Below are positions 2,658-49,934 of a DNA stretch of 64,000 nt, in pieces (position 1 is the first letter of the stretch; every line of letters begins with the position of its first letter). The notes under the pieces were generated by a model. The model made no database searches. It was not told where the DNA came from and saw nothing but the letters and a program-made list of their open reading frames with translations. The position numbers were made by a program, and so were the translations under genes. This DNA is from Laburnicola sp. R22_1 (Eukaryota > Ascomycota > Dothideomycetes > Pleosporales > Didymosphaeriaceae): positions 186,001-250,000 of the forward strand of contig JACONQ010000013.1 of NCBI GenBank assembly GCA_014281115.1, written 5' to 3'.

Positions 2658-4782
2658 CCCTGTCTCGGCAGTCAATGCGCACCGTCACTCAATGCGCAAC
2701 CCCAACGTAATCGCTCAGCCAGCAATATGAGGCTATAGAGCTCTACACAAAAGCTTTTATCGCGAGATTTTCTAGAGTTGGCTTCTCATAGAGCTATAGA
2801 TGATTGCTAGCTAGTCAGATTATAGATATCTGCTTGGTGTTCTGATTATACGGCCACAGCGCGATGATGGCGTTGATGGCGCAGATGCCGCCGCATCAAC
2901 GCGTACAGGTGCTGGCGTAGATTTCTTCCTCTTTATAACTGTATGAGTAGCTTTTAAAGCTTTCTGACTTCCCTTTTTGGCAATTTTGAGACGTTTTTGA
3001 AGTTGTTGTTGAGTCTTGCGAGCCTGTTGACGGAGGCGTCGCTCAGCAGCTTGATCAGCTTTCTCCTTGGCGCGCGCATCTCTGGCTGCTGCCCGCTCAA
3101 CGCGCTTCTCCTGCTGTAAACGAGCTTTAAGCTGTTTATTAGCTATATGGATCTCTTGCTGCTGAGCTTTTTGGAGTTGTAACTGTTGTTTTTTAGCCTC
3201 CTGCTGGCTGAGCGAGTTACGCGCCCTCTGTACGCGGGCAGGTGACCAGAAAACTGCTCCTCCATGCCACTCCTTAGGTTGCTCTAAGGGCAGAGTCTTG
3301 CCTTTTGTTTGACGCCGTTTCTGGTTTGCAAGAGCTTCTCGGAGACCCTTATTTTTATGCTCTAGGAGCTGCTTTTGTACAGAGATTGAGTGTATCGTCT
3401 GGCTCAGCTTACGCGACTCCTCAGTTGCGATATCCTTCACAGTGGAGCGTAACAGTCGCTCTATTTTACGCCAATCTGACGCGCTAAGTACTGAGGTAGA
3501 GCTCACTAGTGATTCTGGCTCTGGCAGAGTCTCTTTGTTAAACCTTTTAAGGATAGGCGTTAGATCTGGCGGCGAGATACCTGTACACTCAAAAGCTTTA
3601 GTAATCAACTGCGGCGTAACTGACGTCGTCCAGGCCTTCCAGAATAGCGTAAAGAAGTCTCTTTTGGCGATTGTTGACAGTCCTTGGCTCCTATACAGGT
3701 ATCCGGAGAGCTCGTTAGAGTAGGCAGCTGAGAGAGACTTAAATACGCAGATGTTAAGAGGCTGCAGCGTATGAGTCGCATGAGGGGGAAATATCGCAAG
3801 GAGGATCTTATTCTGATCGCAGTAGTTGATAAAATCCATAGTAACGTGAGATCCATGCCCATTAAGGACTAGGAGTCGCCACTGCCGTCAAGCCTTCTCC
3901 TTTGTACAGCGATCAAACACCTGTTTAAGCCATTAAAGCCCTATCTCATTGTTTAACCATCCAGAGGTTGATGAGGTGATAAAGACTCTGTGAGAATTGA
4001 CGTTGATTTCTTCAACCCAGCTTAATTGTAGAGTCGCGGCGTCAGATCGATAGATTAGCGCTAGATCAACAGTAGATCCGTCAGCGCATATACATGCGAT
4101 AAGCGAGATTCACTTACGGCTGCCGTCCTATATAGATTGCCTTACTTGGCGACTCTCATATAGAGGCCTATCGAAGATCCTTTTGAGCGGCCAGTGATAC
4201 TAAGGAGGAAGCCTTTCTCGTCCATATTGTACGTATGCTGAGGCTCTACACTATACTCTGTAATTTTCTTGTGTAGAAGCTTAAAGTAGAGCCTGTATTT
4301 TGCCTCTGAATCAGTCTTGTGGCGATTGCTGTCAAGCCTAGTTGTCTATTGTGAGATCAAGGAGTCGGGGTTGCGCCTAACAAAGCGATCAACCCAGGAC
4401 ATGCTGACGTCTCTTTTTGCCATGTAGGAAGCAAAATTTTGTATTATCTGCCGTGTAGGAGGAAGGCCACGCTCAGTAAGGTAGGTGATATATTGTAGAA
4501 GCCCCTTTTCTTGTTGTGGATGGAGTAGACGACGTGTACCATCAGTGATAGTACGCGCCTGCGTGACACGTTGGTGCCTGCGCGTCAACGTAGAGCGTAC
4601 AACACCAAATTCTTTGGCGATTTTATTGTATGATAAAAATTCTCCTGGTTCTTGCGCTTCGATTGCTGCTATCGCGGCGTTAATTGGGTCCATATTGGTG
4701 GAGTTGGGGCGCGTCAAAGTTGGGGCGCGTCATGTTGGGGTTGCGCATTGAGTGACGGTGCGCATTGACTGCCGAGACAGGG
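2658..4782 (-). mobile_element. Fot1/pogo-type DNA transposon, degenerate
   Basis: The element is bounded by 49-bp perfect TIRs (2658-2706 and 4734-4782, outer end ccctgtctcggcagtcaatg) and flanked by a TA duplication (2656-2657 and 4783-4784). That is the Tc1/mariner superfamily target preference. Its length of 2,125 bp is normal for fungal Fot1/pogo elements. The transposase inside runs on the minus strand and is broken by stops, so this copy is dead but could still be mobilised in trans because both TIRs are intact. It resembles the element at 38619-46787 in architecture, but the TIR sequences differ, so these are two related families. Confidence 0.93.
2820..4693 (-). pseudogene. Fot1/pogo transposase, broken
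   Basis: The N-terminal part (ATG at 4693, open to 4346) begins MDPINAAIAAIEAQ. It reads as a psq-type helix-turn-helix followed by a CENP-B/Tc5-like DNA-binding segment containing GLPPTRQIIQNFAS. The middle (about 4345-3840) carries NMDEKGF, the usual first catalytic Asp region, but also in-frame stops. The C-terminal part (3839-2820) has IFPPHATHTLQPLN, typical of the DDE_1 endonuclease family, then a coiled, Gln/Arg/Lys-rich tail. The second catalytic Asp region reads LNGHGSH instead of the usual LDGHGSH, so a catalytic residue is lost. Stops are mostly former Gln or Trp codons. The assignment is secure; activity of this copy is excluded by the stops and the missing Asp. Confidence 0.9.
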
Positions 4783-12050: not shown

Positions 12051-12546
12051 TAAAATTATAGTAATTTATAGTAATTTATAGTAGAATATAGACTTATATA
12101 TAGTAAAGTTATAATAAATATAGTTCTTATTACTACTATATAACTATAATAGACTTTTAAAAGTATCTCTATATAAATAACGATATAAACTATAGAAATA
12201 AATATTAACTAAGTATTACTATTATCCTAGATATCGTCGCTGCCACCGCGCAATATATTCTAAAGACTTAACGCTATATAATATAAAGGCTTAAACGCGC
12301 ATATATTCTTTATAAAGTAGCAAATAATCCTATCCTTTAATTTAAACTATATAGTAATATTATATAGGTCGCTTCTAGGGTTTAATATATAGTAGAGATT
12401 GTTAATTGTCTACTATTATTTAAGTACTATCTCTATAGCCTGCGTATAGTTATACTATTTATCTAGAGTCTACTTATTAATAAGCTACTAAAAGAACTTC
12501 TTTATAAAGTCTTTATTATTTTTACCTAAGTATATAGGACTTAATA

Positions 12547-12627
12547 GTTTTTTTGCGACTAAGGGATTTCTAATAAAAATATTACAATAATAGTAGATAT
12601 CCCTCCTACTATTGTATACACAGATAT
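12547..12627 (-). mobile_element. Retroposon family A, copy reduced to 81 bp
   Basis: An 81-bp fragment of the family A T-rich/A-rich end (starting with gtttttttgcgactaaggg on the plus strand), flanked by the exact 10-bp direct repeat ggacttaata at 12537-12546 and 12628-12637. It corresponds to the last part of the long copies at 25711-26891 and 28147-29268. Confidence 0.82.
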
Positions 12628-12924
12628 GGACTTAATATGAGTATATTAAGAGAAGAGATAGCTTAAGAAGTAGGCGTAAGAGCCTTAATGTAATTAATAG
12701 GTGTAAAAGACATAATAGAAGAGACTAATAGTAATAAACTATAAAGCTAACTCTACTATTAATGCTAGAAATTTAGGTAATATTACTAGTACTCCTTTTC
12801 TAGCCTAAGCTACTCTCTTTACTTTTTACGCTCCTCCTTCTCCTCTTTTAAATAACTAATTTAACACTTTATCTTACGTCTAGCTATCTCTTACTTTATA
12901 TACTTTATTTCTACTATATTAAAG

Positions 12925-13132
12925 TGTAAAGGCACTATAGGGGTTATTACGCCGTATATAAGATAATAGTAGATATTAGAATCTAAATATAAGATAGTAG
13001 CAATACATATATAAGGTGGATACGTAGGCAGGCTATATATATAGCCTCGCTTAGGACCTTACTTAGTAATTACACTAGTCCTAAAAGGGTAATATAATAT
13101 AAGCGAGGGGGTTGCACCTTAGATTAGTAATA
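12925..13132 (-). repeat. 3' LTR (208 bp) of the gypsy element
   Basis: Pairs with 29905-30112; both are exactly 208 bp and share long identical stretches such as agattagtaata at one end. The polypurine tract lies immediately next to it. Confidence 0.88.
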
Positions 13133-13371
13133 CTACTCCCCTCTTTATAGTAGCAACTCTAGTACTACTAAAATTCTTCTAACTCTATATTAATTTCTAG
13201 ATAACTATTACGCTTTATTATAATCTATTACATTTTATTACAAACTATTACGCACTATTGCTAATTATTATAATTCTTATAGTAATTTACACTAAATTAC
13301 TATAACTATCTACTAAAATTACTATAGATTTAGTCTAATTTATTAATGTCTATTAGGATTGTATTATTAAT

Positions 13372-13560
13372 ACTATTGTTATTAATACTATTATTATTAG
13401 TACTATTATTATTAGTACTATTATTATTAGTACTATTATTATTAGTACTATTATTATTAGTACTATTATTATTAGTACTATTATTATTAGTACTATTATT
13501 ATTAGTACTATTATTATTAGTACTATTATTATTAATACTACTATTATTAGTACTATTGTT
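13372..13560 (+). repeat. 15-bp microsatellite/minisatellite array
   Basis: About 12 nearly perfect copies of attattattagtact. It creates an artificial Leu/Val-rich reading frame. The array is much more uniform than the surrounding RIP-mutated DNA, so it probably expanded recently. Confidence 0.92.
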
Positions 13561-15011
13561 ACATAGATTAGTATGCTTAACCTAGCTAAGAGAATTACTA
13601 CTAGGAGGGTTCCTAGGGGAACTACTATCTATTACTAACTTAAGACCTATATCTATCTATCTCTAAATATCTAGATAGGCGTCTATAACCAAAGTAGTAG
13701 TAAAGCATATAATAATATTCTAATGCGTAATAAAATTATTAAAGTTATATAATATAGTAGGCTTTCTTAGATTCTTAGCGTAAAATCTAGTAATAAGATA
13801 GGGATAATTAAGTAGGTTATAATAGGGCTCCTAGGTAGAGTCTTTACAACTATCCTATATAACTTTATACTCTATAACGCTATAGTTAGGAGCGTATAGG
13901 TTCTTCTTTAACTTATTTAACCAGTAGGTAAGTATAGTCTTTACCTTATACTTCTTATTTATATATTTGTTTAGTAGTATATTATTCTTATTATATATCT
14001 AACTATTAAGCAGTTACTTATTATAGAGGTATAGTAGCTATAAGTAGAAAATATTATATAAACAGCCTATTTCCTTAGGTAGGTTAAGCTTATATACTAT
14101 ATTATTAATAACTTATACTATATAAAAAGGTCCTCTATTCTTATAGTTAAGTAATAAGCTAGGCCTCTTAGTCTTAAGATTGTGTGCGTTTAATATTACC
14201 TTATTACTAACCTTAAAAAATAGTGCTAGTGCACACTTTATATCTATATACTTAGCCTATTTAATTTATACCTATTACAAATTATTATATAGAAAGTTAT
14301 ATAAGTAGGTAAGAGAGTTAATAAAGTTATTTACGCGTTAATAATTTATACGTGCGAGCACTATAAGTAGGCGCTTGCTAGTAGTAGTGTACCTACTTAC
14401 TAACTTAATATTATATAATTAAGCTAGTTTAGTACGATTACGTAGTAAATAGCTCTTAGTAGTAATAAAGGGAGCTACTCTAGTTAATTTGCTAACTAAA
14501 AAGTTAGTAATAAACTCTGCTATAGGTAAGTATAAGGCCTAGTTATCTTATTAATAGTTAATGTATACGCATAAGTATTCCTTTAGCGTAGTATTAGTAA
14601 TCTCTATCTAGCTATCTATTTTAGAATGCTAACTAGTAGATAATTATAGTTTAGTGCTAAGACGTTTGCAAAGCCATTTCTAAAAATAAAATAAAAACTA
14701 TTAACTATAGTTACTAATAATATCCTCTATAAAACTCTTTTTATACTAGATATAGGTAATAAGAGCCTCTATAACTGTCTTAGTTATAATTTTAAATATA
14801 GGGATAAACTTCTTCTTTTTACTAAGCTGGTTTATAATAACTATAATAGCTATATAGGTCTTACTATTATTATAATATAGTAGTAAGCTAATAATAAAGT
14901 ATATTAAATAGACTTCTACTATTAATTTAGAATTAGTAGTGGATACAATAAACTATACTTAGCGTTATAGTATAGCTTACTGTAGTAGTGGAATATATAG
15001 ATGTAAATATA

Positions 15012-15117
15012 TAGCATTATTTTATCTACCTAGAGGTAGGACGACAAAGACTTTTATCTTAAGTAATATAACAAAAAAGTAGAGCCCCCTGCTTAGTAAT
15101 TTAAAAAGGCGTATAGG
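15012..15117 (-). mobile_element. Retroposon family B, copy 5 (106 bp)
   Basis: Inserted in the gypsy pol region and flanked by the exact 10-bp direct repeat tgtaaatata at 15002-15011 and 15118-15127. The sequence matches the other family B copies in reverse orientation (gtagagccccctgcttagta). Confidence 0.82.
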
Positions 15118-18100
15118 TGTAAATATAATAGGTAATAGTGTGTATTGTATATAGCTAATAGTACTAGTAACTAATATATTTATAAGTACTCTTATAACTA
15201 ATATATCTAGTAGTAACACTATTATAAGCTTATTTAAGAATATATATATAAAGCTTCTTATTACTAGAGATGTATAGTTAGTTCTTAATATATAGTAGAC
15301 CCTTACTTAACTAATAGCTAGCAACCTTAATCCTATGTTTCTACTTAAGGAGCTTCTCTAGCAAATATTAAGCTTTTGCCTTAATAGTGGCAATAATATC
15401 TTAGACTATCTTATTAATAGTATAGGCTATCTTAATATTCTTAAGTAATTGCGCTATCTTATTAGTCTTTATTATAGTTATAGTAATAGAATTATTATTA
15501 TTAGTAGTAAGTTTAGTAATATAGTATAATATAGCTGCAAGCTATAAACTAAAGTAATAACTTTTATTTAATAAAGCGTAGGCAGTAGCAACTATATAAT
15601 ATAACTCTTTGCCTTTAAAGATTTCTAGCTATAAAACTATCTAGACTTAGTATTATTAGTAGGTATTGTTATTGCCTTTAGATAAGTTACCTAGACAGTG
15701 CGTTAAGATATTAAGTTTTATACCTTATTTACTAGAATAGTACTAAATATAAAAGTTAAACTTAGCTAGAAACTCTACTTATTACGCTTATTATTAATTA
15801 AACTACTTACTAGTTATAAAGTACTATAAAGCAAGGTAATTAGTAATAATATTAATAGAATTCTAGGTATCTAATAGCTTAGATCTCTATTCTTTAAAGG
15901 CGCGTACAATAGCTAGAAGCTCCTTATTATAGATCTTATAGTTACACTCTATAGGGTTTATTTTATATAATAAGTACGTAATAGGCTATAGTACGCCCTA
16001 CTTATCCTTTTATAATAGTACTACTATAGTAACAAAGTCTAATATGTTAGTCTCTAGCTAGATTTACTTATCTAGGTTAAAATAGACTAGAATAAGTGCT
16101 ATTATAAAGGCCTACTTAAGTGCTTTAAAAGTAATTGCTGCAAAAGTCCCTAGTTTAATAGGCTAGTTCTTTAGCATATTACCTTTAGTTAAATTTGTTA
16201 GTAGGCAAGTAATTTAACTAAAATCTTTAATAAATTATTAGTAGAAGTTTGCAAAACCTAAAAAAGACTATATATTTTTAAGCAACTATTGCAGCTGCTA
16301 ATTATATACTACCTAAACCTTTTTAGGGTCTATTTTAATATCCTTAGTAGTTAGTATAATTCTTAAGTACTTAACCTTCTTAACTTTAAAGTAACACTTA
16401 TTAATATTTAGATATAGACTAGCTTATCTAAGTTTATTAACTATAGTCTATATATATTTAATATAATCCTCCTTAGTTTTACTATATATAAGTATGTTAT
16501 CTAAGTAAGCTATATAAAATTTATCTAGGTATTATTATAATATCTTATTAATATATATTTAAAAAGTACTAGAAGCTCTAGTAAGTCTAAATAGTATAAA
16601 AGTGTACTTATAAAGTCTATATTGCATAAAAAACGCTATTTATATATTACCTTTCTTAACGTATATATTATTAAAACCTATAATAATATCTATAATAGAC
16701 ATAAACCTTATCTTATTTATACGCACTAGCGTGTCTTTTATAATAGTGGCGTATTGCGATTATACTTTATAATAGTATTAATTGCGTAATAATTAATGCA
16801 AATGCGTAATTCACCCCCCAGTTTTTAATAATAAGAATAGGAGACGCGTACTAAGAAGTGCTTATCTGCAAAAACTCTTTTATAGTTATTTTATTAATAT
16901 ATTCCTTAACTATTATAGTCTCTAGTTATATAAGACTATATAGATATAATTATAGGGCTTTATTATTAATAAGGTTAATAGTATAGTTAACTCTAGGGTA
17001 ACAATAAGGTAACTTATTAGCCTCCTTTAGGTTAAAATACTAAGACTTATTTTATAACTATATAGGTAACAACTATCTTATCTTACTTATTATATAGGGC
17101 TTATTAGATAACTTTTTATAAACTTATTATAATCTAACTAACTATATATAGTAAGTCCTATAGTAGCGCAGAATGTCTACGCATCGCAATTGCCTATTAT
17201 TAAGTTAAGCAGTCAACCTAGCTAGTTTTAGTTATAAGGCTCTAGCCAAGTTATAAAGTCTAGGCTATAGACTACTATTAGATAAGCTGCCTAGCTAGTA
17301 ATTAGACTAATATCCTCGCAAGTTATTATAGGTTATAAGGAACTAGTAGGTGGCTTATTATAGTATATAGTTTTAGGCAGCGCATCTTTAAGGCAATAAA
17401 CTAGGCAATAATATATATTAAATATTATAGATTTGTTATATAACCCTAGTTGTAGATTATAAGCAAATATTTAATTTATGCTAAGAATAATATTAAAAGT
17501 GCTAATATTAGTAATAAAGCACATTGTAGTACTAGTATAAGTACTATATTATATTATAAGGTCTATAGCTTAACTAATCTTATCTATAACTTTGCTATTT
17601 GTAAGGCATAGAGTAATTAGGTTATTAATATAGTATAGTTTTAGCTAGTGTTATTTAATATATAAAAACTAATAAAACTTGCGCTAGCTCTAGTGTTAGT
17701 AAGCTATTACGTCTTTGCCTATTTTTAAGGTGTAGCTAGTTTAACTAAATAAGTAAACTAGAGTTATTATTTAGTTTTATTTAGTTAATCTATATTAATT
17801 ATAGAAATCTATTATATATACTATAGGTTAAGACCTAGTTTTATATCTAATTTAAACTTATTAATCTTTTACTATACTACTATAAGGTTTCTTTATATAC
17901 GCTGTTATTGTTACTTTATTACCTAATTTTACTCTAGAGCTACTAAAAATATAACTTATTCTTATCCTTATAGTCCTAACCTTAACGTATGTCTAGGTTA
18001 TTATTAGCTAGATTATTAGGTTTAGATAACTTACTATAGAAGCTATTATATCTATATATCCTATATAGATAGTTAGAGTTTATTTAAATAGTATAGATAT

Positions 18101-18623
18101 ACTACGCGTCTTTATAATTAATAAGGTCTAAGAGAATAATATAAAGACACTTAATATCCTTTACTAAAGTAATAGTATTATTATAATATCTAGTAGTCGC
18201 GTCTATTACTTAATGTCCCACTGCGCCATATTTAAAATAGGTATTAGCTTTAGCTAGTAGGTCTAATTTGCGTAATATACGCCTATAGTTATTGCGCCTA
18301 GTAGACTTTATATATAGGGTAGATAAAGTAGTATGTATAGTAGTATAAGATCTAGTTATAATTATATTTATTATATAAGCTTTTAAGTAGTTAGAAGCTA
18401 TTATAGAGACTTCTAAATAACCTATTATAAATTCGCAATTAAGGCTTTCTATATACAATGCTTATTTTATATAAGTAGTAAAAAAGACTTACTAAGGACA
18501 GATAACGCGTTAGTAGTATATATAATATAAGAATATATAAGCTAGTAGGCATAATTTATTAGTAAGTAGTTAGGCATACTAAGATAGTTAACAACTGCTA
18601 TAAATTGCGTATACTAATCTATA

Positions 18624-18750
18624 GTTTTTTTTTGCGACTAAGGGGTTTCTAATAAAATTATTACAATAATAGTAGTTATCTCTCCTACTATTGTTAATAC
18701 AGAAAAGCGTTTTAAGATAGTGTTAATAAAAAGAAGTTAGCACGTTATAG
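18624..18750 (-). mobile_element. Retroposon family A, copy reduced to 127 bp
   Basis: Flanked by the exact 12-bp repeat tactaatctata (18612-18623 and 18751-18762). On the minus strand it ends with the family tail cttagtcgcaaaaaaaaa and begins about 127 bp before it, inside a region that also exists in the long copies (ctttttattaaca followed by aaaacgctttt). Confidence 0.85.
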
Positions 18751-18799
18751 TACTAATCTATAAGAGTCTCTCTAGGGCCCTAGACTAGAGTATCGCCTA

Positions 18800-18985
18800 T
18801 AGGCTAGTAAATGGGTTCGGGGTACCCAGCTTAGATATAGGGTTAGGCTGGGGTCGCATAGACCCTAGGTATAGGTTAGGTTAGGGTTGCATAGACCCTA
18901 GATATAGGTTAGATTAGGTTATATAGACCCTAGGTATAGGTTAGGTTAGGTTATATAGACTTCTAGGTGTAGGTTAAATTAGGGT
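18800..18985 (+). repeat. Degenerate tandem repeat, about 45-bp unit
   Basis: Four or so copies of a unit containing catagaccctaggtatagg followed by ttaggttaggg. A related reverse-complement sequence (cttaacctaatctatacc) occurs at about 24802, so this may be the subterminal repeat of the hAT relic between them. Confidence 0.6.
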
Positions 18986-19229
18986 ATCTATTAGAGTTGC
19001 ATAACTTATATTATATAAAATTAATAGTAATAAGATTAGTAACTTTACTTACTCTTTAAAGGTATATAAGAAAAGAGATCTAAGTAAAAGTAAAATTAAC
19101 ACTATTTTGCTATTAATATATATATTTATTATATCTTATTATTGCTAACGCTATAGTAGCGCTAAGGCCTTAACTACTTTTATAGTAGCTCGCTATCTAA
19201 AACCTTAGAACCTTATATAGTTTTAATAG

Positions 19230-20520
19230 TCTCCTTATTAGCTAGTAGCTTATATAAATTATTCCCCTTATCTAATAGTGCTATGTCCCTTAAATTATTC
19301 TCCCCTATATTAGAATCTAATAACTTTATAGATTATTTATTAGCTATTATAAACTTAACTATTATAACCTTTTAAATTATTTAAGTAGCGAGATTATGTC
19401 TTTAATTCCTAATTATATCCCTACTAGTGTTAAAAACGCGCTTAATACCTATCTATAAAATTTATACTACTATGATATCCTTTATAATCTATACAAGTTA
19501 GGGATAAGATATTTAATAAACTTTTTACTACGCTAGTATATTAAACTTATTACCCTTTTTAACTATAAGAGGACTTAGGTATATTTCTCCTTTTATCTAA
19601 GTTAGGCCTAAGTTATAATTAATATCTAGCGTAGCTAAACTTTAGCTAAAAGTAGAGAGGCTACTAGACTATAAACTAGATAGCAAAGAAGGCTTTTAAA
19701 ACTATTTACTACCTTGCAACTATCTTAGGTTAGTATTTAAGACTAGAGTAGGGTCCTTAGCTATTAGGCTGTTATAGCAATTAAAGTACTCTAGAAACTA
19801 TTAGTAGTATATATACTTATTCTAGGTCTCCTATATCTTATTCTATATAACTATTAATATATTACTATAATAAATAGCTATAATTATAATACCTTATACG
19901 CTATAAGCTTTTATAAAGAATCTAATATTATTATATAGTTAAATAAGAAACCTTTCTCTCTATCTATCCTTAAGTAATACTTGCGCAACTTTTCTTATCC
20001 TATCTTAGCTGTAGCCTATATAGCTTCTAGCTATCTAATATTTTTTAACTCTTTAATAAGCTTATTATTTATCTTATTTAAGAAATTAAAGAGCTAGTTA
20101 TATATAAGCTAGATATATAGGACCTAGAATTTCTAGTTCTTACTTAGGAAGTTTATAGCCTCCTTAAACTTTTAAAGCATAGAAGTAATTAACTTAAGAT
20201 ATAACTATTCTAGAGTTAATAGTTAAAGTTTCTTAAGGTCTTTAAAGTCTGCCTTTATAGTATTGCTATAAGCAAAAGCATTTAATTTCCTAGTTATCTT
20301 TATTATAATCTTCTTCTCTAGCTATATATTAATATTTGCCTAAAGCTTTAGTGCGCGCTCGCATATATTATATATAGAGTTCTATCTTATTTAAACATCT
20401 TAAATTATAGACAATTACTTCTTTAGTAGTGTGTTACTCTACGTTATAAGAAATTACTTAAATTGCTATAGTAACTAGTTAATTGCAATACAAATAGCAC
20501 AGAGCTACGCACTAGTTAGT
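19230..20520 (-). pseudogene. hAT transposase relic
   Basis: With stops read as Gln/Trp, the minus strand gives hAT landmarks in order. These are a degraded LDVKTRWNST-like box followed by CERALKL at about 20400, then KYYLRIDRERG and ILDSLQKL near 19970-19900. The dimerisation (hATC) region follows at about 19520-19330: YPQLVQIIKDI, then RVFDTSRDIIRNQRHNL, the degraded form of ERVFSTARDI. The protein is dead. Its borders are uncertain: similar short inverted sequences around 18791 and 24843 (sharing aggctag, then aaat) may be its TIRs, but no 8-bp duplication was confirmed. It lies inside the gypsy element and is therefore younger than it. Confidence 0.75.
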
Positions 20521-20521
20521 T

Positions 20522-20690
20522 TATAATAACTTTTTATAATAACTTTCTATAATAACTTTCTATAATAACTTTCTATAATAACTTTCTATAATAACTTTCT
20601 ATAATAACTTTCTATAATAACTTTCTATAATAACTTTCTATAATAACTTTCTATAACTTTCTATAATAACTTTCTATAATAATAGCTAAC
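20522..20690 (+). repeat. 13-bp tandem repeat
   Basis: About 12 copies of actttctataata with one phase slip near 20650. Located just upstream of the recognised hAT coding part, within its element. Confidence 0.92.
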
Positions 20691-22225
20691 ATACCTTGCG
20701 AAGGGAATTTAGAATAGATATCTACGCCTAGATTTTGTTTATATATTATCGCTGTAGCGTCTCTTTAGAGTTAAGATTAATAGACGCTAATAACTTAAAG
20801 TAATAGATAATATCTTAAACTATAAGGTTAATAGTATAAGTAAGATATAAGATTGTATTCTCTTTTTAATTCTAGGTAATATTCTTCTCTAATAGTTTAT
20901 TCTAGACACTCTAAGCTAGGATACTATTATTATTAGTATTATTATATATAATTACTAGGAGCTTCTGCGCAGTTCCTATATTCTTAAGGACCTATAGTAC
21001 CTCTAATACTATTAATACTCTAGTATAGCTGCTATATATTAGTATAAAATTAAGCAGCTTCTCCTTAAGCTGCTAAGCATTATTAATATAGTAACTATTA
21101 ATAACTAGAAAGCTAAGGTAATTAGCTATAGACTACGCGTTAAGCAAAATAGAGAGTTTAGTTACCCTACTATATTACTAAAAATAGCTACCTTAGCAGT
21201 ATTAAATTTATTTAGGACTATCTAGCAAAACCTATACTAGCTAGTTATTATAGTGTTAGGCCTAAGGAAACAAAGAAAGTGTTAAAAGGATAGCCGCTCT
21301 ACTATTTAAAAGGACTAGTTATTATTAATTACTATCTATATAAGTTTAGTTTTAAACACCTATAAAGAGTATGTAGGATATAAAATAGCTATCTGCTTTT
21401 TTTTATACTAAAAAGTAAAAGTCCTTTTATAAATAGGCTTATTCTACTATATATATATTTAGAACCTTATATAGTTAATAAGGTGCTTAGTACTAATTAG
21501 CTAGGTACTAGTAAAGTTAACACTTCGGTATTATAGTATATAGCTGCAGTTAAGATAGAATATATATAGATAACTAGAGGGGTACTCTACGCCCTCCTAG
21601 AATATAGTCTAGATAATATCTATATAAAGGTAAAAGTTCTAGTGTAGGTTATAGGTTTGTTTATCTTTAGCCTATTAAGTATTAAACTACTACGCGTTCT
21701 ATATAGCAAATATTTTTTTCCTTATTTCTGACTCTTAAAAGTCTAAAGAGGGATATTAGATAAGATAAATTATTCTACTTCCTAACCTATTAGTCTATAG
21801 GGCTAGAATTCTATATCTAAAAAGAGAATCTAGTAGTAAAACAACTAGTTTATTAATAGAGGGCTATAGCACTTAAAAATATTAGTATAATAAAAAGACG
21901 TAATAACTAGTTAAATAGTTGTTTAAGAGAATAGTAGTTTAAAAGAGAATAGAATAAACTAAATTCTATAATATTAACTATAGTAGTGTTTAACTAATAT
22001 TAAGGTTAGCTAAAAATAGCGTGCAGCGCATAGTGTGCTAATAATAAGTTGGTTTTAGATTTAGACTACTATATAGCCCTTTATTATAGAGTTAGTTTTA
22101 AGTAGTAATTAGCTTATTACTATACTATTATAGACGGTATTCTTAGTAACTAGTATATAATTATTAGCTATAATAATTAGCTATAGCAAAACTACAACTC
22201 TAGCTTATCTTATCCTACGTGCTAA

Positions 22226-22345
22226 TTATTATCTAAAATCCCCTTAGCACCTAAGCCCTCCTTATTATCTAAAATCCCCTTATTATCTAAAACCCTCTTA
22301 GCACCTAAGCCCTCCTTATTATCTAAACCCCTTTAGTACCTAAGC
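22226..22345 (+). repeat. Short direct repeats, about 36-bp unit
   Basis: Three imperfect copies of ttattatctaaaatcccc, followed in part by ttagcacctaagccctcc. No flanking duplication seen. Confidence 0.7.
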
Positions 22346-22541
22346 TCCTAAAGTCTAAGAAACCCTTAAAGTCTATATTCTTATCTATAATATTAGAGTT
22401 ATACCTATCTAGCAGCTCCTAGAAATAAGCCTTAAGCTCCTTTCTATTATTCTTAATTTCCTCTTTACACTTTTAATTATTATTCTCCTTAATATACGCC
22501 TTATTGCTATTAAGCATACTATCCTTACCATAGTTAATAAG

Positions 22542-22710
22542 CCCCGTGCCAAGACCGCCAAGCTTGCTTAGCAGTTCGAACACGCTTTTTTTTGTCATTA
22601 CCTTTTTCACGCTCTTTTTAATTACTAAGTAGGGGGCTCTGCTTTTTTTGTCGTATTATTTAGGATGAAAGCCTTTGTCGTGCTACCCCTAGATAGTTAA
22701 TTTAATGCCA
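22542..22710 (+). mobile_element. Retroposon family B, longest copy (169 bp)
   Basis: Flanked by the exact 13-bp direct repeat catagttaataag (22529-22541 and 22711-22723). It starts ccccgtgccaagaccgcc, contains gcagttcgaacacgc (a weak Pol III B-box look-alike), and ends gttaatttaatgcca. Being the longest member, it best approximates the full unit. Its first 45 bp are much less AT-biased than the surroundings. Confidence 0.85.
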
Positions 22711-24148
22711 CATAGTTAATAAGATTAGTAGAAGAACTAGGCTTATAATAACTAATAATTATTAGTAAAGCTATGTAATAAATAAGTATAATAAACTTAC
22801 AATTATTTCTTATTAATAACTATTACTAGCTCTTTAGTAATTAGACCTATATTGCCTACGCTGTTGCAAAAGTCCTTTTATTCTTTCTTATTAGTTTTAC
22901 TCTTAAAGCTATTAGTCTTAAGCTTTCTTACGTCTGCCTTATATATATTGCGTAAGAGCTTCTTATATACTCTACTATAACTAAAGATTTATTTATTTAC
23001 GCAATTCTATAGTATAGAAGGGCCTTTTCCTTTACTAGTAGCAATTCTACACTTAGCTAGAGCTGCTTAGTAAGTCTTTAGATTAACTTTATTTTTAATC
23101 TTATCCTACTTCCTATATATAGCTATTAGTTTCGCCTCTAACTAGTTGCCTACGCCTTATTAGTTAACTAATATATAATAATAGGATATAATAATATACT
23201 ACTTCTTTAATTCTTAAAGTAGAACTATATAAGCTCTTCTTCTTTCTACGCAAGCTATTAATACTTTTACGCTTTAGAGAGTAGTTAGTAGTTCTTATTA
23301 TTATAAAGCTTTTTTAAGCTAATATTATATAGCTTAATTAGCTAATTTAGTAAAGTCTAGTATCTTTGTTTCTTTACTATAAAGTGTATTGCAAGATCTC
23401 TATATAATAGTATAGGTACTACTACTAAGTGCACTTTTAAATAGCACTTTATAGTTAGTAGAATAATCTTTCTAAAAGCTACCTTATCTATAATAAAAAA
23501 ATAGTACTAATCTCTTTATCTCTAAATATAAAGTCCTATCTATATTAGTATATAGTATAATAAAAGGCTGTAATTACTAGGTACCTTAGTAAGACCCTTC
23601 TACTTATTACGCTTAAAATTTGCTAGTATCTATAGGCCGCTGCTTAGGAGGCCCTCTAGAATATTAGGAGACTCTTTCTTAATAGACACTATAGTATAGA
23701 GGATAATAATAATATATAATAACTATAGTTAATATTATAGAGATAATAAAAATATTATTATTATTATAAAAAGTAGCTATAGGGGCCTATATGTATAAGT
23801 AAGGCGCTAATAACACTAGTGTATTTTCTTTACTTACCTTACTACCTACTTAGCTACTCTACCTTACTACCCTTCTAGCTACTTTTTTAATACTTTACAG
23901 TCTTAACTACTATATAACTTTAATTTCTAAAATAATAGTATATGCTAGACTAGTTAAATACTTTAAACTAGTTACTAGCAAATCTTAAGTAAAAAAAAAA
24001 GAAGTCGCTAGCTACTAAGGCTGCGCAAAAGGCGTCTTGGAAATTACTACCTACTACGCTAAAGAGAAAGCACTACTAGAAGCTAGATAGTATATTATTA
24101 TTATAGCTATTTATTATATATATATTCTAATAATATATAACTATTACG

Positions 24149-24244
24149 AAACGCTTTTCTGTGTATACAATAGTAGAAGGGATATCTGTTATTATTGTAA
24201 TATTTTTATTAGAAACCTCTTAGTCGCAAAAAAAAAAACCATAG
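24149..24244 (+). mobile_element. Retroposon family A, copy reduced to 96 bp
   Basis: Begins aaacgcttttctgtg and ends cttagtcgcaaaaaaaa plus ccatag. Flanked by the exact 8-bp repeat ctattacg (24141-24148 and 24245-24252). Confidence 0.78.
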
Positions 24245-25710
24245 CTATTACGCTTAGGAAAATTATAAAGTACTAAAAGAGTATTAAGCCCCTTATTAGG
24301 AAAATACTATTCTATTACCTTATTAAGAAAGTAGCGCAAAATAATAATAAGAAAGATCTGCGCTTCTAGTCTACTATGCTAGCTGCTCTCTAAAAGGCAA
24401 TAGAGGCTTTTCTAATTAGAATATTTAAAAGTATTTCTTTATACTACTCTACTCCTACTATAAAATAAATACTAATACCTCTAAATACTAATATTAACGC
24501 TATTTATACACAATAAGTTACTATATAGGCTAAAAATATATAGCTAGCAGATAGGTACTATAAGAAGTATATAGATACTAGGTAAATAGTAAGGCGCTTA
24601 GTTAGGTTTAAAATAGCTAGGCGCTTAATTAGGTTTAATAGATATATTTAACACTAAAGCTAGACTTTTACTATAATAAGTAAACGTAATAATTGCTACT
24701 ATAATAATAAGAGTATTTTTATAGTAATTTACTATAAAAATTATATATAGCTAAAAAAATATATATAATTAGTTAGACCTAATACAACCTAGTCTATGTA
24801 ATCTTAACCTAATCTATACCTATTTGCTAGCCTAATTGCCTATAATATTTTTCTAGATATCTAATAGTTTATTCTCTAACAAATAGATTTTGTTAAGATA
24901 GTTAAGCATATTAGCTATAGTTGTAGTAGTTTTAAAATATAGGTATATAAGAGTCTAGGCCTACCCCTTTAGTTAGCTTTGCAAATATATAATATAAAGC
25001 TACTTAGTAGGTAAAGTCTATAGTTTATCTATTAACGCATTATGCTAGCGTTTATAGTTATCTTTATCTTTATTCTTATTAGAGAAGAGATTTACCTTAG
25101 GCATTTAAATGCGTAAGTATTAGAGATCTGCTATAAGTTTTAGTAATAGGATTACTTTACAAGGGGGCAGTAGATAGGTCTATTATTATATATAACTTAT
25201 ATAGCTAATAGCACGCCTATTATAATATAAATCTAGGATAAGAGACAGATGTATATAATTAAGTAATAGATTATTTACTAGAGTATAGCAAACTTTAACA
25301 TTAGGAAGTTACTTAATAGAGGGGATAGACTAATTAGGATATTTAAACTATTGCGTATTACAAGGTTAACCCTACTATATAATATAAATAGGTAGTTATC
25401 CCCTAAGCTTAGTAATATAGGTGCAAGCTATATTTAATTCTTATTAAATTATATACTTTACTTTTATTAATTATAAAATATAGTTCTCTAAGTCTTAATA
25501 ATTAACGCGTAGGACGTAATTATCTAGTAGTTCACCTTAGAGCTTCCTAAGTTATTATTATAAAGCTATATAATAAGCGGTAGGGATTTTAGATCTCCTA
25601 AGAGTAATAAAGTCCTTTTTTAATAACTTATAATATGCTCGCAGCTAGATATTATCTTATTTTGCTATCTTAAGGGAGTCCTTATACAATAATATATAAC
25701 CCTTTAATAT

Positions 25711-26891
25711 CGCATTGTTTATTTTGTGTTAATTACCTTCTTTAATACATTTTTTTAATTTGAGCCTACGTAGGTTAGGATGAAAAGGCCGCTCTAGTCT
25801 AGCGCCTAAAAATATAGTCTACTCCTAGTCTCCGCTAACGTAATAATAGTTTATAAGGATAGTTTATAAACTACACACTTGCCTAATATCTATAAGCGCT
25901 CTAACGCCTATTAAAAATTACTTAAAGTATGTATAGAAAACTAACTCTTACTTTATTATTGCTATTATTAGCAATTGCGTCGCTTATGTGTTACGCTTAC
26001 TACTTAACGCTATAACTGTAAGGATTTAACGCATCTACATAATGCTCTTCTTTTCTAGTAATTTATTAATAAATATCTTTATTTTCTCTTTTTTCTTATT
26101 GCCCTTCTTTAATGTTATTACCGCCTTTCTAACTAGTAGTAATATAAAAAACTGCAGTAGCAACCCTACGTGTCTATTATAGCGCCTATAGTTACTAATC
26201 TATTACTAGCCTAACTAATATACTAGAACCACCTTATATAGGCTAAGGTATACCTTCTCTACTTTAATCTTTAATCTATTAATAGAATCTTTTAGATAGA
26301 TTAGAGTGTACTAGGCGGTGTTAACTATAATTTTAGTATTAGTAGTACTCTAGTATAGGCCTAGTAACTTTAAGTAGATAGATTAGAGTGTACTTTTAGG
26401 CGGTGTTAACTATAATTTTAGTATTAGGGCTTAGGAGAATAGTAGAAAATAGAGTAGTAAAAGTCTCCTTAAGGTTAACTTTAATATAGAAATAGAGTAT
26501 TAGTATACTTATAGTATATAAGCTTCTACCTAGTATATATTGCCTATAAGTAGCATAAACCTACTAATATAATTGCTATTACTTTTAGTAATCTTTAGAA
26601 ATAATAGTAGAGAGAAATAGTTATAGCATTATACTAGTTGCGACGCTAGCGCTATTTTATACCTTTTCTACTCTAAACTATAGTATAGTAATATAGCCTT
26701 ATGTATAGTTTTGTATGTAAATTTTTTTTAAGTTAGAGTAGACGCGCTAAGCCTACTAAGCTTGCTTATAACGCGCTAACCCTTTTTATTAATATCTAAA
26801 AACGCTTTTCTATGTATATAATAGTAGGAGGAATATCTGCTATTATTATAATATTTTTATTAGAAACCCCTTAGTCGCAAAAAAAAAAGCT
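25711..26891 (+). mobile_element. Retroposon family A, long copy 1 (1,181 bp)
   Basis: Begins cgcattgtttattttgtg and ends cttagtcgcaaaaaaaaaa plus gct. It is flanked by the exact 15-bp direct repeat ataaccctttaatat (25696-25710 and 26892-26906). Variable 8-15-bp target duplications, an A-rich end and shortened relatives that keep that end indicate target-primed reverse transcription, as for LINE/SINE-type elements. An antisense frame in the 5' half reads protein-like with stops only at Gln/Trp-type codons (pieces such as NKLLEKKSIM and LGARLERPFHPNLRRL), so a coding origin is possible; no known family was recognised. An internal 100-bp direct repeat (about 26290-26440) is specific to this copy. 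Confidence 0.85.
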
Positions 26892-27999
26892 ATAACCCTT
26901 TAATATTTTAACTTATTCTAACTTTATTCTAAACTATTGCTCTAACACCTTATAACTAGCCTTAAGTTATTTAAACTCTTAAAGCTTAGTCTACTTATCT
27001 TCTAATTTGTTAGTAATTTATTATATAGTTATTAATAGTGACGTAATAATATTCTACTAGAACTTAGGTTTCTAGTTAATAGCGTTAACAAACTATATAT
27101 ATTCTTAAACCTTAACTTTATCTAGTTTTAAACTATTCTCCACACTAGTTACACTAACTTAGAGTTAGTAATCTAGTATATTACTATTAGTATTAGTAAT
27201 ATTAGTAAAGTATATATACTTAGAGAGATTGGCGAGTAGTAAACTAGCACAATATTATTAGTTATATATTATAGTTAGTTAATTATATATATTAATAAAA
27301 GGGTTACTTTTATTAAAAGGTTAAATATTATTATTATTATCTATAAAAGCTTTATTGTAATCTTTAAGTTAAAGACGTTTTTTTAAAGGTAACTTTGTGC
27401 TTATTATATTATCACTCTATTTCTAGCAAGTTATTATCTAACTTATCCTAGTCTATAGGCAGGGTACCCTAAGTAGTGCTCTACTAAGTTAGGACCTTTA
27501 GCTAAGACATAGTAGTAAAGTTGCAGGGCTTCTTATAGAAGCTAGTGTTATTATTATTCTTATAGCTTAGTCTTACTATCTTATCTACTATATATAATAG
27601 GTTTATCTTTTAGTAAGTATATAATTTAAATTAGAGATTAAGATTGTAAAGTTAAGGATAAGGTAAGCAGTATTACTAGTTATAGTAGTTACTTTTATAC
27701 TAGGTATTATAATCTAGTCTATACGTAACTATAAAATTCTAAATATATATATATATATAAACCTAAAACTTTATATAGTAATATTAAACTTCCTAAGCTT
27801 CTACTAAAGTAGGTAAGACTTATTAGAATTACTATAAGGTCTTAAGACTTTTAACTGCGCAAAATAAGCGCACCTAATAACTAAGATTACTATTATACTA
27901 CACTAGAGTAATTTACTAGGGGTATAGGTCTTACTAACTTAACTTATAATTATACCTTAGGCTATAAGTTATCTAGATTATTACTATCTACTATTATTA

Positions 28000-28133
28000 T
28001 AAAGGTCTTATGTATCTGTCTACTATTATTATTATGAAGGTTCTATATACTATTTGCTATTATTATAGAGGTTCTGTGTATTATAACCTTTTACTATTAT
28101 TATAGAGGTTCTATATAACTATCTATTATTATT
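28000..28133 (+). repeat. Degenerate repeats of a 35-40-bp unit
   Basis: About four imperfect units containing ctattattatagaggttct. They directly precede family A copy 2. Confidence 0.6.
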
Positions 28134-28146
28134 ATAGTATATTATA

Positions 28147-29268
28147 GTCGCATTGTTTATTTAATGTTAATTATCTTTTTTAATATATTTTTTAATTTAA
28201 GCCTGCGTAGGTTGGGATAGAAAGGCCGCTCTAGTTTAGCGCCTAACAATATAGTCTACTAAGTCTTCGCTAATATAATCATAGTTTATAAAGAGAGTTT
28301 ATAAACTGCCCACTTGTCCTACTATTTATAAGCGCTCTAACACTATTAATTTACTTAAAGCGTGCACAAAAAACGAAGCTCTATTATTGCTATTATTAGT
28401 AATTACACTGCTTATGCGTTGTGCTTACTATTTAATACTATAATAACTATAAGAATTTAGCGCATCTATATAACGCTCTTCTTCCCTAGCAACTTATTAA
28501 TAAATATCTTCTTTTTTTTTTCTTTTATTGTCCTTCTCTAAGGTTATTACTACCTTCCTAACTAGCAGTAATATAAGAAACTGTAGTAGCAACTCTGCGC
28601 GTTTATTATAGCGCCTATAGTTACTAATCTATTACTAGCCTAACTAGTATACTAGAACTACCTTATATAGGATAAGGTATACTTTTTACTTCCTATTAAC
28701 AATCTTCTAGATAGAGTAGTACTCTAGTATAGACCTAGTATTTTTAGATAGATAGATTAGAGTATACTTTTAGGTAGCGTTAATTATAATTTTAGTATTA
28801 GGGCTTAGGAGAATAGTAAGAAATAGCGTAATAGTAATAGAAGTCTCTTTAAGGTTAACTTTAATATAGAAATAGAGTGTTAGTATATTTATAGTATATA
28901 AGCTCCTATCTAGTATATATCTTATAATAGCACAAATCTACTAATATAGCTATTACTTCTAGCAATCTTTAAAGATAATAGTAGAGGAAGATAATAGTTG
29001 CAGCGTTATACTAGTTGTAGCGCTAGCACTATTTTATACCTCTCTTACTCTAAACTATAGTATAGTAATATAGCCTTATTATATTTTATATATAGATTTT
29101 TTTTGCTTAGAGTGTGTGCGCGAAGTCTACTAAGCTTGCTTAGCTTACTTCTACGCTAACCCTTTTTATTAACACCTTAAAACGCTTTTATATGTCTATA
29201 ACGCAGGAGAAATAACTACTATTATTATAATATTTTTATTATAAACTTCTTAGTTGCAAAAAGAAACT
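28147..29268 (+). mobile_element. Retroposon family A, long copy 2 (1,122 bp)
   Basis: Aligns over its whole length with 25711-26891 (gtcgcattgtttattt at the start, gttgcaaaaagaaact at the end), and is flanked by its own exact 13-bp repeat atagtatattata (28134-28146 and 29269-29281). Because its target duplication differs from that of copy 1, the two are independent insertions and not LTRs of one element. Confidence 0.86.
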
Positions 29269-29904
29269 ATAGTATATTATAAGTAATAGAGAAGATATTA
29301 TAGTTAGAGACGTTACTATTATTAAATCTAGGCGATAATATTAACATTATCTTATCTCTTATTAGTAAGGTAAATAGAATTATAGAGATTTATAATAACT
29401 TATAATAAGTTTAATAGTTATAACTATAGGTAGCTTATTTAAGTAAGCTAGGCTTATAATTATTACAATAACTAGATTTGCTTATTAGTAAGCTCTTCTT
29501 ATAACTACCGTAATAGTTATTATATATAAATCTTGCTAAGCTTATAGGTTGTTATTAGGAGCTATATTACCTATAAGTAGGTTATTCTTCTAGGGACTAT
29601 CTATTATAATAATACTAGAGGGCTAATATTTTATAAGATATAACCTATATACTTTATAAGGCAGAGCTAATTCTTTATCTTCTACTACACCTATTATTAA
29701 TAGATAATCTATAGATAAGTGTTATTATTATTACTATTAGTTACGTTAGTAACGCTCTAAAGAAGACATCTATACTTCTAATATATAAGGTACTTAAGAA
29801 TATAGAGGCGCCCCGCCTGCTATATTTATTAATAGGCATTATTAGTAACGCCTTAGAAATAGGCTATAGATAGTTAAGCTATAGCTTAACAATTGCTACT
29901 ATAG

Positions 29905-38618: not shown

Positions 38619-39889
38619 CCCTAGCTTGGCAGTCCGTGCAACGCGTCACTCCATGCAACACCCCGCCATGCAACACCCCAACTTTGACGCGCCATATCTC
38701 CACTAATATGGATCCAATTGAGGCTGCGATAGCAGCAATCGAATCGCGAGAGCTAGGAGAATCTTTCTTATATAGACAGGTTGTAAAGGATCACGGTGTT
38801 GTGACTTCTACACTAACGCGTCGGCACCAAGGCGTCACACAAGCAGGTGCAGCTGCCAACTCCGCGCGTCGAAATATCAGCCAACAACAAGAAGTAGAGC
38901 TTCTACAATATATCAAACAGCTCACCAAACGTGGCCTTCCTCCTACAAGGCAGATGATACAGAGCTTTGCTTCACATATAGCCAAAAAGCAGATCTCAAT
39001 ATCCTAGGTTGATCGCTTTGTACGGCGGAACAAGGAATCCTTAATATCTCGATAGACGGCCGGCATCAACAACAATCGCCACAAAGCTAATTCTCCAGCC
39101 AAATATAAGCTCTACTTCGAGCTCTTATAGCGTAAGATCGAACAATATCAGATTAAGGCTCGAGATACGTACAATATGGACGAGAAAGGCTTCCTGCTCA
39201 GCATCACCTCCCACTCCAAGAGGATCTTCAATAGGCCTCTATACAAGGCCAAGACTGTAAGGCAAGTAATACAAGATAGTAGCTGTAAGTGGATATTGAT
39301 CATAGCTTGTATATGCGCCGACGGATCTGCCTTGGCCCCAGGTCTTATCTATTAGGCTAGCTCTATCAACATACAATTAAGCTGGGCCAAGGATATTAAT
39401 CCTGAACACCATCAGGCCTTTATTACAGTATTAGAATCTGGCTAGAGCAATAATCAGATCGGCCTTGCATGGCTGCAACAGGTGTTTAATTGGCTCACAA
39501 AGCCAAAATCTGGACGATCGTATCGGCTATTGATCCTTGATGGCCATAGATCTTATATTATAATAGACTTTATTGACTTTTGTGATCGCAATAGGATCCT
39601 GCTAGCTATATATCCGCCTTATTCTACGCATACGTTGCAGCCTCTTAATGTCTGCGTCTTCAAGCCTCTATTAACAGCATATTTGAACGAGCTATCAGCC
39701 TTCATAAATAATAGCCAGGGACTGGCCTCAATCGCTAAGAGAGGTTTCTTTAGCCTGTTCTGGCAGGCCTAGGTCAATACAATAAGGCAGCCATTGATCC
39801 TCCGGGCCTTTAAAGCTACAGGCATCTCCCCGCTCGATCCAACAACCCACACCGAACACCAACTTTTCGATTTTTAGATATCCTCTCTA

Positions 39890-41640
39890 GAGACCCTAAT
39901 AATCCCAGCAACTGAACAAGCTCACCGCGCTGATTCCGGGAGTACCTCTAACGTCCGCCTAGCCCTCCGCGCAACCGCGCAAAGGAGCTTGTCAGGATAG
40001 CAGAGTCTCCCTCCTCCCAGCACACAGGGTCCCCAGACCCGAAGATCCCGCAGCAGCTTTATACACGCGCCCCAAGACGGCCCCAGGAGGACATGCATCA
40101 CTGTGCACCCCTTCTAAGCAGCTAGAACCCTAGTGGGGGCGCTCCTAAACCTCGCGTCTCTGATGCCGTCTAACGCCACATCACCGAGACTTAGCAGATT
40201 GCCCAGCTGTGGAACACTATCACTACGGCTTTCGCAGCAGTAGTAGACCAACACGCAGAGAGCTACACTAACCCTTAAGAAGCCAAGATTGCTGAGGAGC
40301 TATAGCAGAGAGTTATCCAGGCTCTGACCTCGCTCCCCCCAAGCAACTCCCTCCCTAGCTCCCGCTAGAGCAGCGACACCAGTCACAGCAACCCTAGGAG
40401 CTAAGAGTCGGGACGCCGCTCTTAGGCGGACGTAGCCAGAGACCCCCAGATCTCAGATAGGGGTGGCAGTCGGCCCCTAATCCCTACTAAGCCCCGGCCC
40501 AACCCGCCCATTAAGCCAAAAGAAGACAATCGAATATTCGTAGCCATCTCTAACCCGGCAATGCGACTGCAACAACCCTCACCCTTTGCAATAAGGCAGG
40601 CAATATGCAAGAGCATAGCAGGACTCACCCTTAAAGACATACCTACCGCATCACCAATCAACACAGGCTGGGCGATTACTCCAGCAAATAAGAACATCTG
40701 GGGCCGACTTCTAACTTAAGAAAACTAGGAACTTCTAGTAAGAGCGCTAGGCGGAGACGCGGTGAAGATCCCCGAACGCTGGATCAACTACGCAGTACAA
40801 GGAGTACCTAGCTCTTTCCGGACCCTAGACGGCACAGAACTACTAACTACTACCTAGCTAGTAGAAGAAGAGGTCTGCTCGCAAACAGGCAAGCAGCCAG
40901 TTAGTTGCAGGACCTCACAGCATAGGGCAAATTAATATGGCCTCACAACCTGGATTGTTTTATACAAGGAGCCAGTCCGCTCGTTCTAGCTCTTTGGCAC
41001 TAGCCAATTCTCGAAGGAAATCCACAAGCATCCCACTATACAGCAACATAACCCAGGCTGCCAGGGATACTGCAACGCTGCCCGCTGTACCCGAGTAGCC
41101 CGCTGTGCACACTGCGGGGACCGCACGGATAGACACCAAGGACAGTACGGGGACAGTTGCGCCCACAAAGCTATGTGTGCCAACTGTCATGGCCCTCATC
41201 CAGCTAGTCACACCAACTGCCCGGCAGCCCCTCGCCAGGTCAACGGACACATCACTAAGCCTACGAAGACCGAGCTAAAGGCTATTCGTCGCGCAGGCAA
41301 AATAGCACAGCAGCACCTCTACAGGACAGTTAAAGTGGCCCTTGGACAGGCAGCACTTTAGCCTGAAGCTCCTCCTATGGAGGTATTAGAGACAGTGCCT
41401 TCCCACCTTTCTGCCTAGAGGCAAGAAGGAAATAGCAGGGCTACACCTCCTACAACTACTGCCTCCTATGCATCCTCCTCTACTACTGGCAGAGAAAAGA
41501 GACCAAGGCGGGCCGCCACAGGCCAGAGGAGCCTTAATGTAGGACAACTGTCTGCCGGCAGCATTCGTCCACAATCAACTATCCACACTGACCCGTCCAC
41601 CTCAGAGAGGGAAGACGCCAGCATGAGCGATGACCCGCCA
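39890..41640 (+). pseudogene. LINE ORF1 (gag-like), broken
   Basis: Nucleic-acid-binding protein of the LINE. Recognisable parts are a conserved central segment (RIFVAISNPAMRLQQPSPFA to IPTASPINTGWAI, about 40530-40680) and two C-terminal Cys/His knuckles: ARCAHCGDRTDRHQGQYGDSC and MCANCHGPHPASHTNC (about 41095-41222). Several TAG stops interrupt it. Start and end are approximate. Confidence 0.75.
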
Positions 41641-41649
41641 TTATCATGT

Positions 41650-49417: not shown

Positions 49418-49583
49418 ATTAGGTTAATTATATATTCTATGTAGCGTATATAGTATTAACTTTTAATATTAAGGCTAGTTAATAAATTAATTTACTTAAT
49501 AAACTTTATATTATTATTACTTATATTATTACCTATAAAATAATAGAGTTTTTGCTTAAAGTTATACTTATAAATAATCTAGA

Positions 49584-49695
49584 CTACCTTTTCACGCTTT
49601 TTTTTTAATTACTAAGTAGGGGGCTCTGCTTTTTGTTATGTTATTTAAGATGAAATCCTTTGTCGTACTACCTCTAGGTAGTTAATTTAACGCCA
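49584..49695 (+). mobile_element. Retroposon family B, copy 2 (112 bp)
   Basis: Flanked by the exact 15-bp repeat tataaataatctaga (49569-49583 and 49696-49710). Ends ggtagttaatttaacgcca. Confidence 0.87.
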
Positions 49696-49934
49696 TATAA
49701 ATAATCTAGATAATAACTTAAGCTTACATAGCTACTATATAGTTGCTAAAAATATTATAGAAGGTAATAAGTAGATTATATTATTAGTGTTAAGTATCTA
49801 AATTATAAAAAGTTAATATTAAAAATTCACTAAGTCCCTTATTAATAAGAGCACTAGAGCGAAATAACTATCTTACTAATAAAGCAGGCCATAACTCTAA
49901 GAAAGCTTATATTATTTAGTAATATCTATAAATT

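Follow-up and report, generated by a model that had tools for sequence, protein, structure and literature searches.

Introduction

Long, SINE-like retroposons (SINE, short interspersed nuclear element) that do not derive from tRNA and are probably driven by RNA polymerase II (Pol II) are little characterised. One case is Eg-R1 of Blumeria graminis, the barley powdery mildew, which the available portion of its description presents as a SINE-like element that lacks A and B boxes as well as a genomic poly(A) and whose T-runs argue against RNA polymerase III (Pol III) (PMC6022598). According to the same portion, Eg-R1 is probably a non-autonomous retroelement transcribed by Pol II, of a class "as yet not well characterized", and eight B. 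graminis families, Eg-R1 among them, have a conserved 5' region (PMC6022598). We analysed a stretch of 64,000 nucleotides from the ascomycete Laburnicola sp. R22_1 (contig JACONQ010000013.1, positions 186,001 to 250,000; hereafter the window), part of a genome of 63.9 Mb in 26 contigs, in which a first-pass annotation had recognised a dispersed repeat, here called family A.

Family A is a large non-coding, non-autonomous family of units of about 1.1-1.2 kb. Very probably, it is a non-coding retroposon of the non-LTR type (LTR, long terminal repeat), mobilised by the machinery of a long interspersed nuclear element (LINE). The profile of family A also picks up diverged copies with another 3' end, which we call family B.

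Copy number, unit and ends of family A

Used as a BLAST query, the 1181-bp copy at 25711 found at least 46 places genome-wide, a lower bound because scoring covered 40 of 1318 candidates. Thirty-three of these 46 rows were full length (query 1-4 to 1165-1181, both window copies counted), with 76-82% identity when the query itself is set aside. The exact tail pattern CYTAGTYRCAAAAAA occurred at 551 places in the genome, against none for a reversed-pattern control. In an alignment of 14 full copies, of which the outer parts were inspected, all copies began at GTYGCATTGTTTATTT, give or take a few bases, and had the same end. Thirteen copies showed a mean pairwise identity of 0.829, with 13.5% transitions and 3.5% transversions, and a profile built from them gave 78 matches in the examined loci and the window. 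The first-pass annotation had proposed such a genome-wide query with the long unit, tabulating start points and flanking repeats; copies proved abundant and their duplications variable.

The window alternates AT-rich blocks with blocks of about 50% G+C. Strong dinucleotide depletion of the type left by repeat-induced point mutation (RIP) marks its 9-30 kb portion (TA/AT 1.71, (CA+TG)/(AC+GT) 0.30), compared with 1.08 and 1.19, respectively, at 33-46 kb. Long family A copies carry RIP-type mutation as well, CA and TG being reduced to 0.28 and 0.39 of expectation. A short copy at positions 3391-3476 of locus L043 is apparently unmutated, as are its flanks, and it has at least 40 places at 91-100% identity, itself counted (40 of 1130 candidates scored).

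Target-site duplications and the 3' junction

Duplications were sought around 46 tail-bearing, non-redundant family A matches with a score that tolerates transitions, those scoring at least 10 being called clear. Two doubtful rows were kept among the 46, one in L043 (model position 354, score 9.4) that really belongs to family B, the other in L051 (model position 1021, score 5.0) with a doubtful tail. Clear duplications flanked 33 of the 46 copies, against 5.6% of 2070 mismatched pairs of 5' and 3' flanks. Their lengths are variable, mostly 10-19 matched columns, with two values of 21 and 26, one of which lies within a tandem repeat. ATA opens the duplication in 27 of 33 clear cases of family A and 16 of 19 of family B (43/52), compared with 23% of random positions, and this ATA is preceded by T in 40 of the 43 anchored duplications, compared with 50% at random. 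The preferred nick site is thus T|ATA, and that of family B is the same as that of family A.

The first-pass annotation had described a constant, A-rich 3' end. The constancy holds; the end is not a plain A-run, as unmutated junctions outside the five copies that it had named close with C(2-4) before ATA. Sixty-six places read CTTAGTCGC, an A-run, C(2-4) and ATA (control, 0), the A-run being sometimes broken by CAAA, TAAA, T, TA or G; the pattern itself requires CCATA and permits at most 12 bases between CGC and CCATA. Because unmutated junctions carry C(2-4) before ATA, we read the frequent ACT|ATA ends of RIP-mutated copies as C-to-T changes at CpA. The family A tail is an A-run plus C(2-4) before ATA rather than plain poly(A), a feature new here.

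5' truncation and mode of insertion

Among the 46 tail-bearing copies, 13 are full and 33 truncated; without the loci picked for their length, the figures are 5 and 32 (n = 37). Truncation starts are spread over model positions 275-1047, intermediate lengths are present and start letters vary among copies, which bears out the earlier observation that short copies begin at variable points of the long unit. Target-primed reverse transcription by a LINE that bears an endonuclease is recognised by duplications of variable length, a fixed 3' end, 5' truncation and an AT-rich nick motif. The joint occurrence of these features in family A therefore argues for this process, which the first-pass annotation had put forward, and for a LINE-type endonuclease.

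The constant ends of full-length copies could also suit a DNA transposon, an LTR element or a local segmental duplication. The first-pass annotation had named constant duplications of 4-6 or 8-9 bp at copies sharing both ends as the sign of the first two; the lengths found here vary instead (10-26 matched columns). In addition, truncation is confined to the 5' side in many copies, the word GTCGCA recurs at both ends in direct and not inverted orientation, and copies are spread over many contigs, so that an origin of this kind is scarcely credible.

Truncation starts also pile up beside a hairpin, a further feature new here. In the tail-picked loci and the window, 12 of the 22 family A copies starting in the last 160 model positions begin at 996-1010 (P ~3e-6 under uniform starts over these positions, for an interval picked after viewing the data). 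Similarly, 7 of 20 such family B copies begin at 1002-1012 (P ~1e-3). Just 5' of this hot spot, or overlapping it, lies a hairpin-folding stretch, typically GCGCG...CGCGC, whose pattern is present in 11 of 14 full family A copies; the corresponding pattern was matched in three of six family B copies. The pile-up may well reflect an enzyme stopping at the hairpin. Short copies are common, and the 12 starts that fall within 15 model positions would also suit a separate short SINE of 60-130 bp, with its own source gene and a chance match to the 3' end of the long unit. Such a SINE is quite unlikely, given the spread of starts over 275-1047, the intermediate lengths, the differing start letters and the similar picture in family B.

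Family B, a related family with another tail

Family B is a second, more divergent family related to family A, with an alignable body and a different tail, and new here. Two family A and five family B copies align with 56.7% identity over ~980 columns, and family A copies match the family B profile over most of its length, with E down to ~1e-69. The family B tail ends in ...GGTAGTTAATWTAACGCC, followed by up to a few AC units, and its exact pattern occurs at 488 places, against none for the control. A profile made from four copies gave 33 matches reaching the 3' end, of which 29 with a recognised tail were retained and four dropped; clear duplications flank 19 of these 29, against 6.0% of mismatched pairs. 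Family B is probably older than family A, since its copies differ by more transversions (8.1% against 3.5%). A third related family was sought with a joint A/B profile in the examined loci and the window, giving one extra weak match only (E 0.004).

Another conceivable origin is that of chimeras of the MINE type, in which a host non-coding RNA is joined to a LINE 3' part by template switching. The length of the units, close to the non-coding 1.1 kb of WEIRD, and their LINE-type duplications agree with such an origin for A and B, and a single ancient fusion, later amplified, remains compatible with the data. However, body and tail stand in one register in the 14 full family A copies and a variable LINE junction was not seen in the inspected part of their alignment, which makes chimerism of this sort unlikely.

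Coding capacity and transcription

No coding capacity was detected in family A. The longest stop-free stretches measure 47-77 aa in 13 of the 14 full copies and 115 aa in the last one, L054, owing to a low-complexity insert. In each of the six frames, 13-25 codons are stops in all aligned copies that have letters there (at least 8 of 13). None of eight X-masked whole-frame translations (the six of one family A copy and two of the six of one family B copy) had a Pfam match at E<=1. The protein-like antisense frame suspected in the first-pass annotation is thus not supported, as stop-free stretches are short, stops are fixed across copies and Pfam matches are lacking, although this rejection is not absolute because saturated RIP could hide an old reading frame.

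The same uncertainty bears on the idea that family A is a decayed, once-autonomous small LINE whose frame was wrecked by RIP in every copy: the long copies examined do carry RIP-type mutation, and saturation by RIP could account for the stops that all copies have in common. On the other side stand the eight translations devoid of a Pfam match and the gaps between copies, often not multiples of three in the inspected part of the 14-copy alignment. Moreover, 1.1 kb is too short for an endonuclease plus a reverse transcriptase. We regard a decayed LINE as very improbable.

Nor does family A look like a usual SINE. A tRNA scan of 13 loci was negative, window positions 25600-29350 gave no Rfam match at E<=1, and no reverse transcriptase was detected in the element, in agreement with the earlier opinion that the unit is neither a LINE nor a usual SINE. 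These tRNA and Rfam scans gave no sign of a Pol III promoter, a search aimed at A and B boxes not having been made and RIP being able to blur such boxes. The 14 aligned copies have runs of at least six T close to their 5' end, in about the first 60 nt, which makes a full-length Pol III transcript unlikely; transcription would more probably depend on Pol II.

Proposed mechanism and search for a helper LINE

The family A RNA, probably a Pol II transcript, would be taken up by the endonuclease/reverse transcriptase of a LINE. The endonuclease would cut at T|ATA in AT-rich DNA, with the nick 5'-TAT^A on the bottom strand, and the freed end would prime cDNA synthesis at the RNA 3' end, ...CTTAGTCGC-A-run-C(2-4). 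Synthesis would reach the fixed 5' end (GTYGCATTG...) or halt early, often at the hairpin ~100-130 nt from the 3' end, and a staggered second-strand cut would create the duplications of ~10-19 bp. Long copies would then be mutated by RIP after insertion.

A helper was looked for through the reverse transcriptase domain RVT_1, scored at 150 of 662 candidates, a match length of 750-790 bases being our own criterion for a LINE-type place; 22 places were of this type, one of them in the window at 43140-43916. The window contains a LINE at 39847-45871, with a reverse-transcriptase match. Its tail is (CCAA)n, and its duplication, CCCGCTCGATCCAACAAC, measures 18 bp (39829-39846 and 45872-45889). It seems to be inserted in a transposase-like gene, as its 5' edge adjoins a frame with 62.5% identity to one at 3633-3896 (pogo/DDE type by eye). 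Its CCCGCTCGATCCAACAAC duplication and (CCAA)n tail differ from those of families A and B, which speaks against this LINE as their helper, though not decisively.

Several observations weigh against the mechanism proposed here. A clear duplication was not found in 13 of 46 family A and 10 of 29 family B copies, and the ATA anchor is missing from 6 of 33 and 3 of 19 clear duplications, respectively. The stability of the hairpin exceeds that of shuffles by a modest margin only (z -0.2 to -3.0), the hairpin pattern was missed in 3 of 14 family A and 3 of 6 family B copies, and the hot-spot interval 996-1010 was defined after the data were seen. A structured recognition hairpin at the 3' end, suspected from a GCAG...CTGC motif in both families, was rejected: the last 80-130 nt of two family A copies and one family B copy showed no folding advantage over shuffles (z +1.0, -1.0 and +0.3), so that no structured 3' recognition signal is demonstrated. 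Finally, a LINE with the family A 3' end, which the first-pass annotation had suggested looking for, was not found with the unmutated tail, as none of the 22 LINE-type RVT_1 places was followed by such a tail in the 80 kb downstream on its own strand; this comparison used 66 unmutated junctions and the 40 best tails, and covered unmutated tails only. A helper LINE with a mutated tail, one among the unscored candidates, or one that needs no shared tail is possible.

A broader proposal can be made tentatively, at somewhat less than even chances in our estimate. Families A and B could be two members of a so far undescribed lineage of non-coding retroposons, about a kilobase long and transcribed by Pol II, which would have endured in a fungus with active RIP and changed its 3' end in the meantime. 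The hot spot would then be set by a hairpin of both families, at which the reverse transcriptase of a LINE, its own copies undetected in the genome, comes to a strong stop. With sharp ends, a measurable target motif, a truncation hot spot and hundreds of exact-tail places for each of the two families, the identity of the helper LINE and the nature of the stop signal become open to test, and the families could in addition mark past RIP activity.

Copies of both families and other elements in the window

The five insertions named in the first-pass annotation are real, and exact direct repeats flank all of them at the places indicated, with lengths of 16, 14, 12, 10 and 8 bp. Two are full length and on the plus strand, at 25711-26890 (16-bp duplication TATAACCCTTTAATAT at 25695-25710 and 26891-26906) and at 28147-29267 (14-bp duplication TATAGTATATTATA at 28133-28146 and 29268-29281). 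The three others are 5'-truncated. On the minus strand, the copy at 18624-18750 starts at model position 997, at the hairpin hot spot, between 12-bp duplications TACTAATCTATA (18612-18623 and 18751-18762), and the copy at 12547-12627 lies between 10-bp duplications GGACTTAATA (12537-12546 and 12628-12637). The plus-strand copy at 24149-24244 has an 8-bp duplication CTATTACG (24141-24148 and 24245-24252), which grows to 12 bp (ATARCTATTACG) when one G/A difference, a RIP-type change, is tolerated. The end said to be common to the five is found in four of them, as CTTAGTCGC followed by at least seven A, while the fifth (28147) reads CTTAGTTGCAAAAAGAAAC. A sixth copy had been overlooked. It lies on the plus strand, lacks its 3' end and is divided by a nested 622-bp element into the parts 57292-57338 and 57961-58879. 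Nested self-insertion was seen at locus L040, where a long family A copy (1169-2607) holds a short one (1515-1617, minus strand) with a 14-bp duplication.

Family B is represented in the window by truncated copies. Two 5'-truncated ones on the plus strand have clean duplications, at 22542-22710 (13 bp, CATAGTTAATAAG, at 22529-22541 and 22711-22723) and at 49584-49695 (15 bp, TATAAATAATCTAGA, at 49569-49583 and 49696-49710). The remaining ones are model matches, namely a 5'-truncated minus-strand copy at 15044-15118, with untrimmed ends and a duplication of 16 columns that includes one C/T difference (score 14.7), two 5'-truncated plus-strand copies at 49894-50033 (clear duplication not found) and 50093-50158 (weak duplication, score 9.4), and a truncated minus-strand copy at 57001-57280, beside the split family A copy, with no clear duplication (score 7.7).

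The 622-bp element nested in the split copy (57339-57960) is flanked by a 14-bp duplication AATATATCTTTTTA at 57325-57338 and 57961-57974, and shows a stretch resembling a tRNA T-arm by eye, GAGTTCGAATCTCGCC, and a TAA-repeat tail; ARAGORN and Rfam found no tRNA in it. Among its 126 candidates, 40 were scored, all nearly full length and at 91-94% identity (itself aside). It is a younger, SINE-like family. Elsewhere in the window, an open frame of 362 aa at 54431-55519 resembles by eye a Tc1/mariner-type transposase.

Comparison with known fungal retroposons

In the surveyed portions of the literature on fungal non-autonomous non-LTR or SINE-like elements and on MINE, no element could be matched to family A or B. 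Mg-SINE of Magnaporthe is Pol III in nature and shorter than family A. According to the part of the report available, Mg-SINE is like family A in being non-autonomous and LINE-dependent, and its 3' end is common with that of the LINE MGL (PMC2104539), whereas for the family A tail no LINE was found (22 LINE-type places, unmutated tails). In the same part, MINE/WEIRD of Magnaporthe is like family A as a 1.1-kb non-coding RNA copied by a LINE with 10-20-bp duplications; however, WEIRD was seen solely as a fusion, joined through variable junctions to parts of a LINE or SINE (PMC2104539), whereas A and B are single units in a fixed register.

The AfuSINE elements of Aspergillus fumigatus are likewise fungal non-autonomous retroposons, the tRNA-related ones with 4-14-bp duplications, as far as the available text describes them (PMC5063351). 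They differ in their origin from tRNA (140-493 bp) or 5S rRNA (259-343 bp), their low copy number and the Pol III promoter features of the tRNA-related families (PMC5063351).

The nearest known kind, judged by description and not by sequence, is that of the Eg-R1-type retroposons of powdery mildew. There are differences, since Eg-R1 has a functional AAUAAA and an RNA shown to be polyadenylated, whereas AATAAA is not in the last 81 nt of the unmutated-looking L043 copy of family A; similarly, Blumeria was suggested to be without RIP, whereas the genome studied here has RIP-type mutation (both after the accessible portion of PMC6022598). Nevertheless, Eg-R1 and the BG_Non-LTR group of B. graminis, as portrayed there, are like families A and B non-autonomous non-LTR elements with many copies, internal T-runs, a 3' end without genomic poly(A) and partial conservation between families (PMC6022598).

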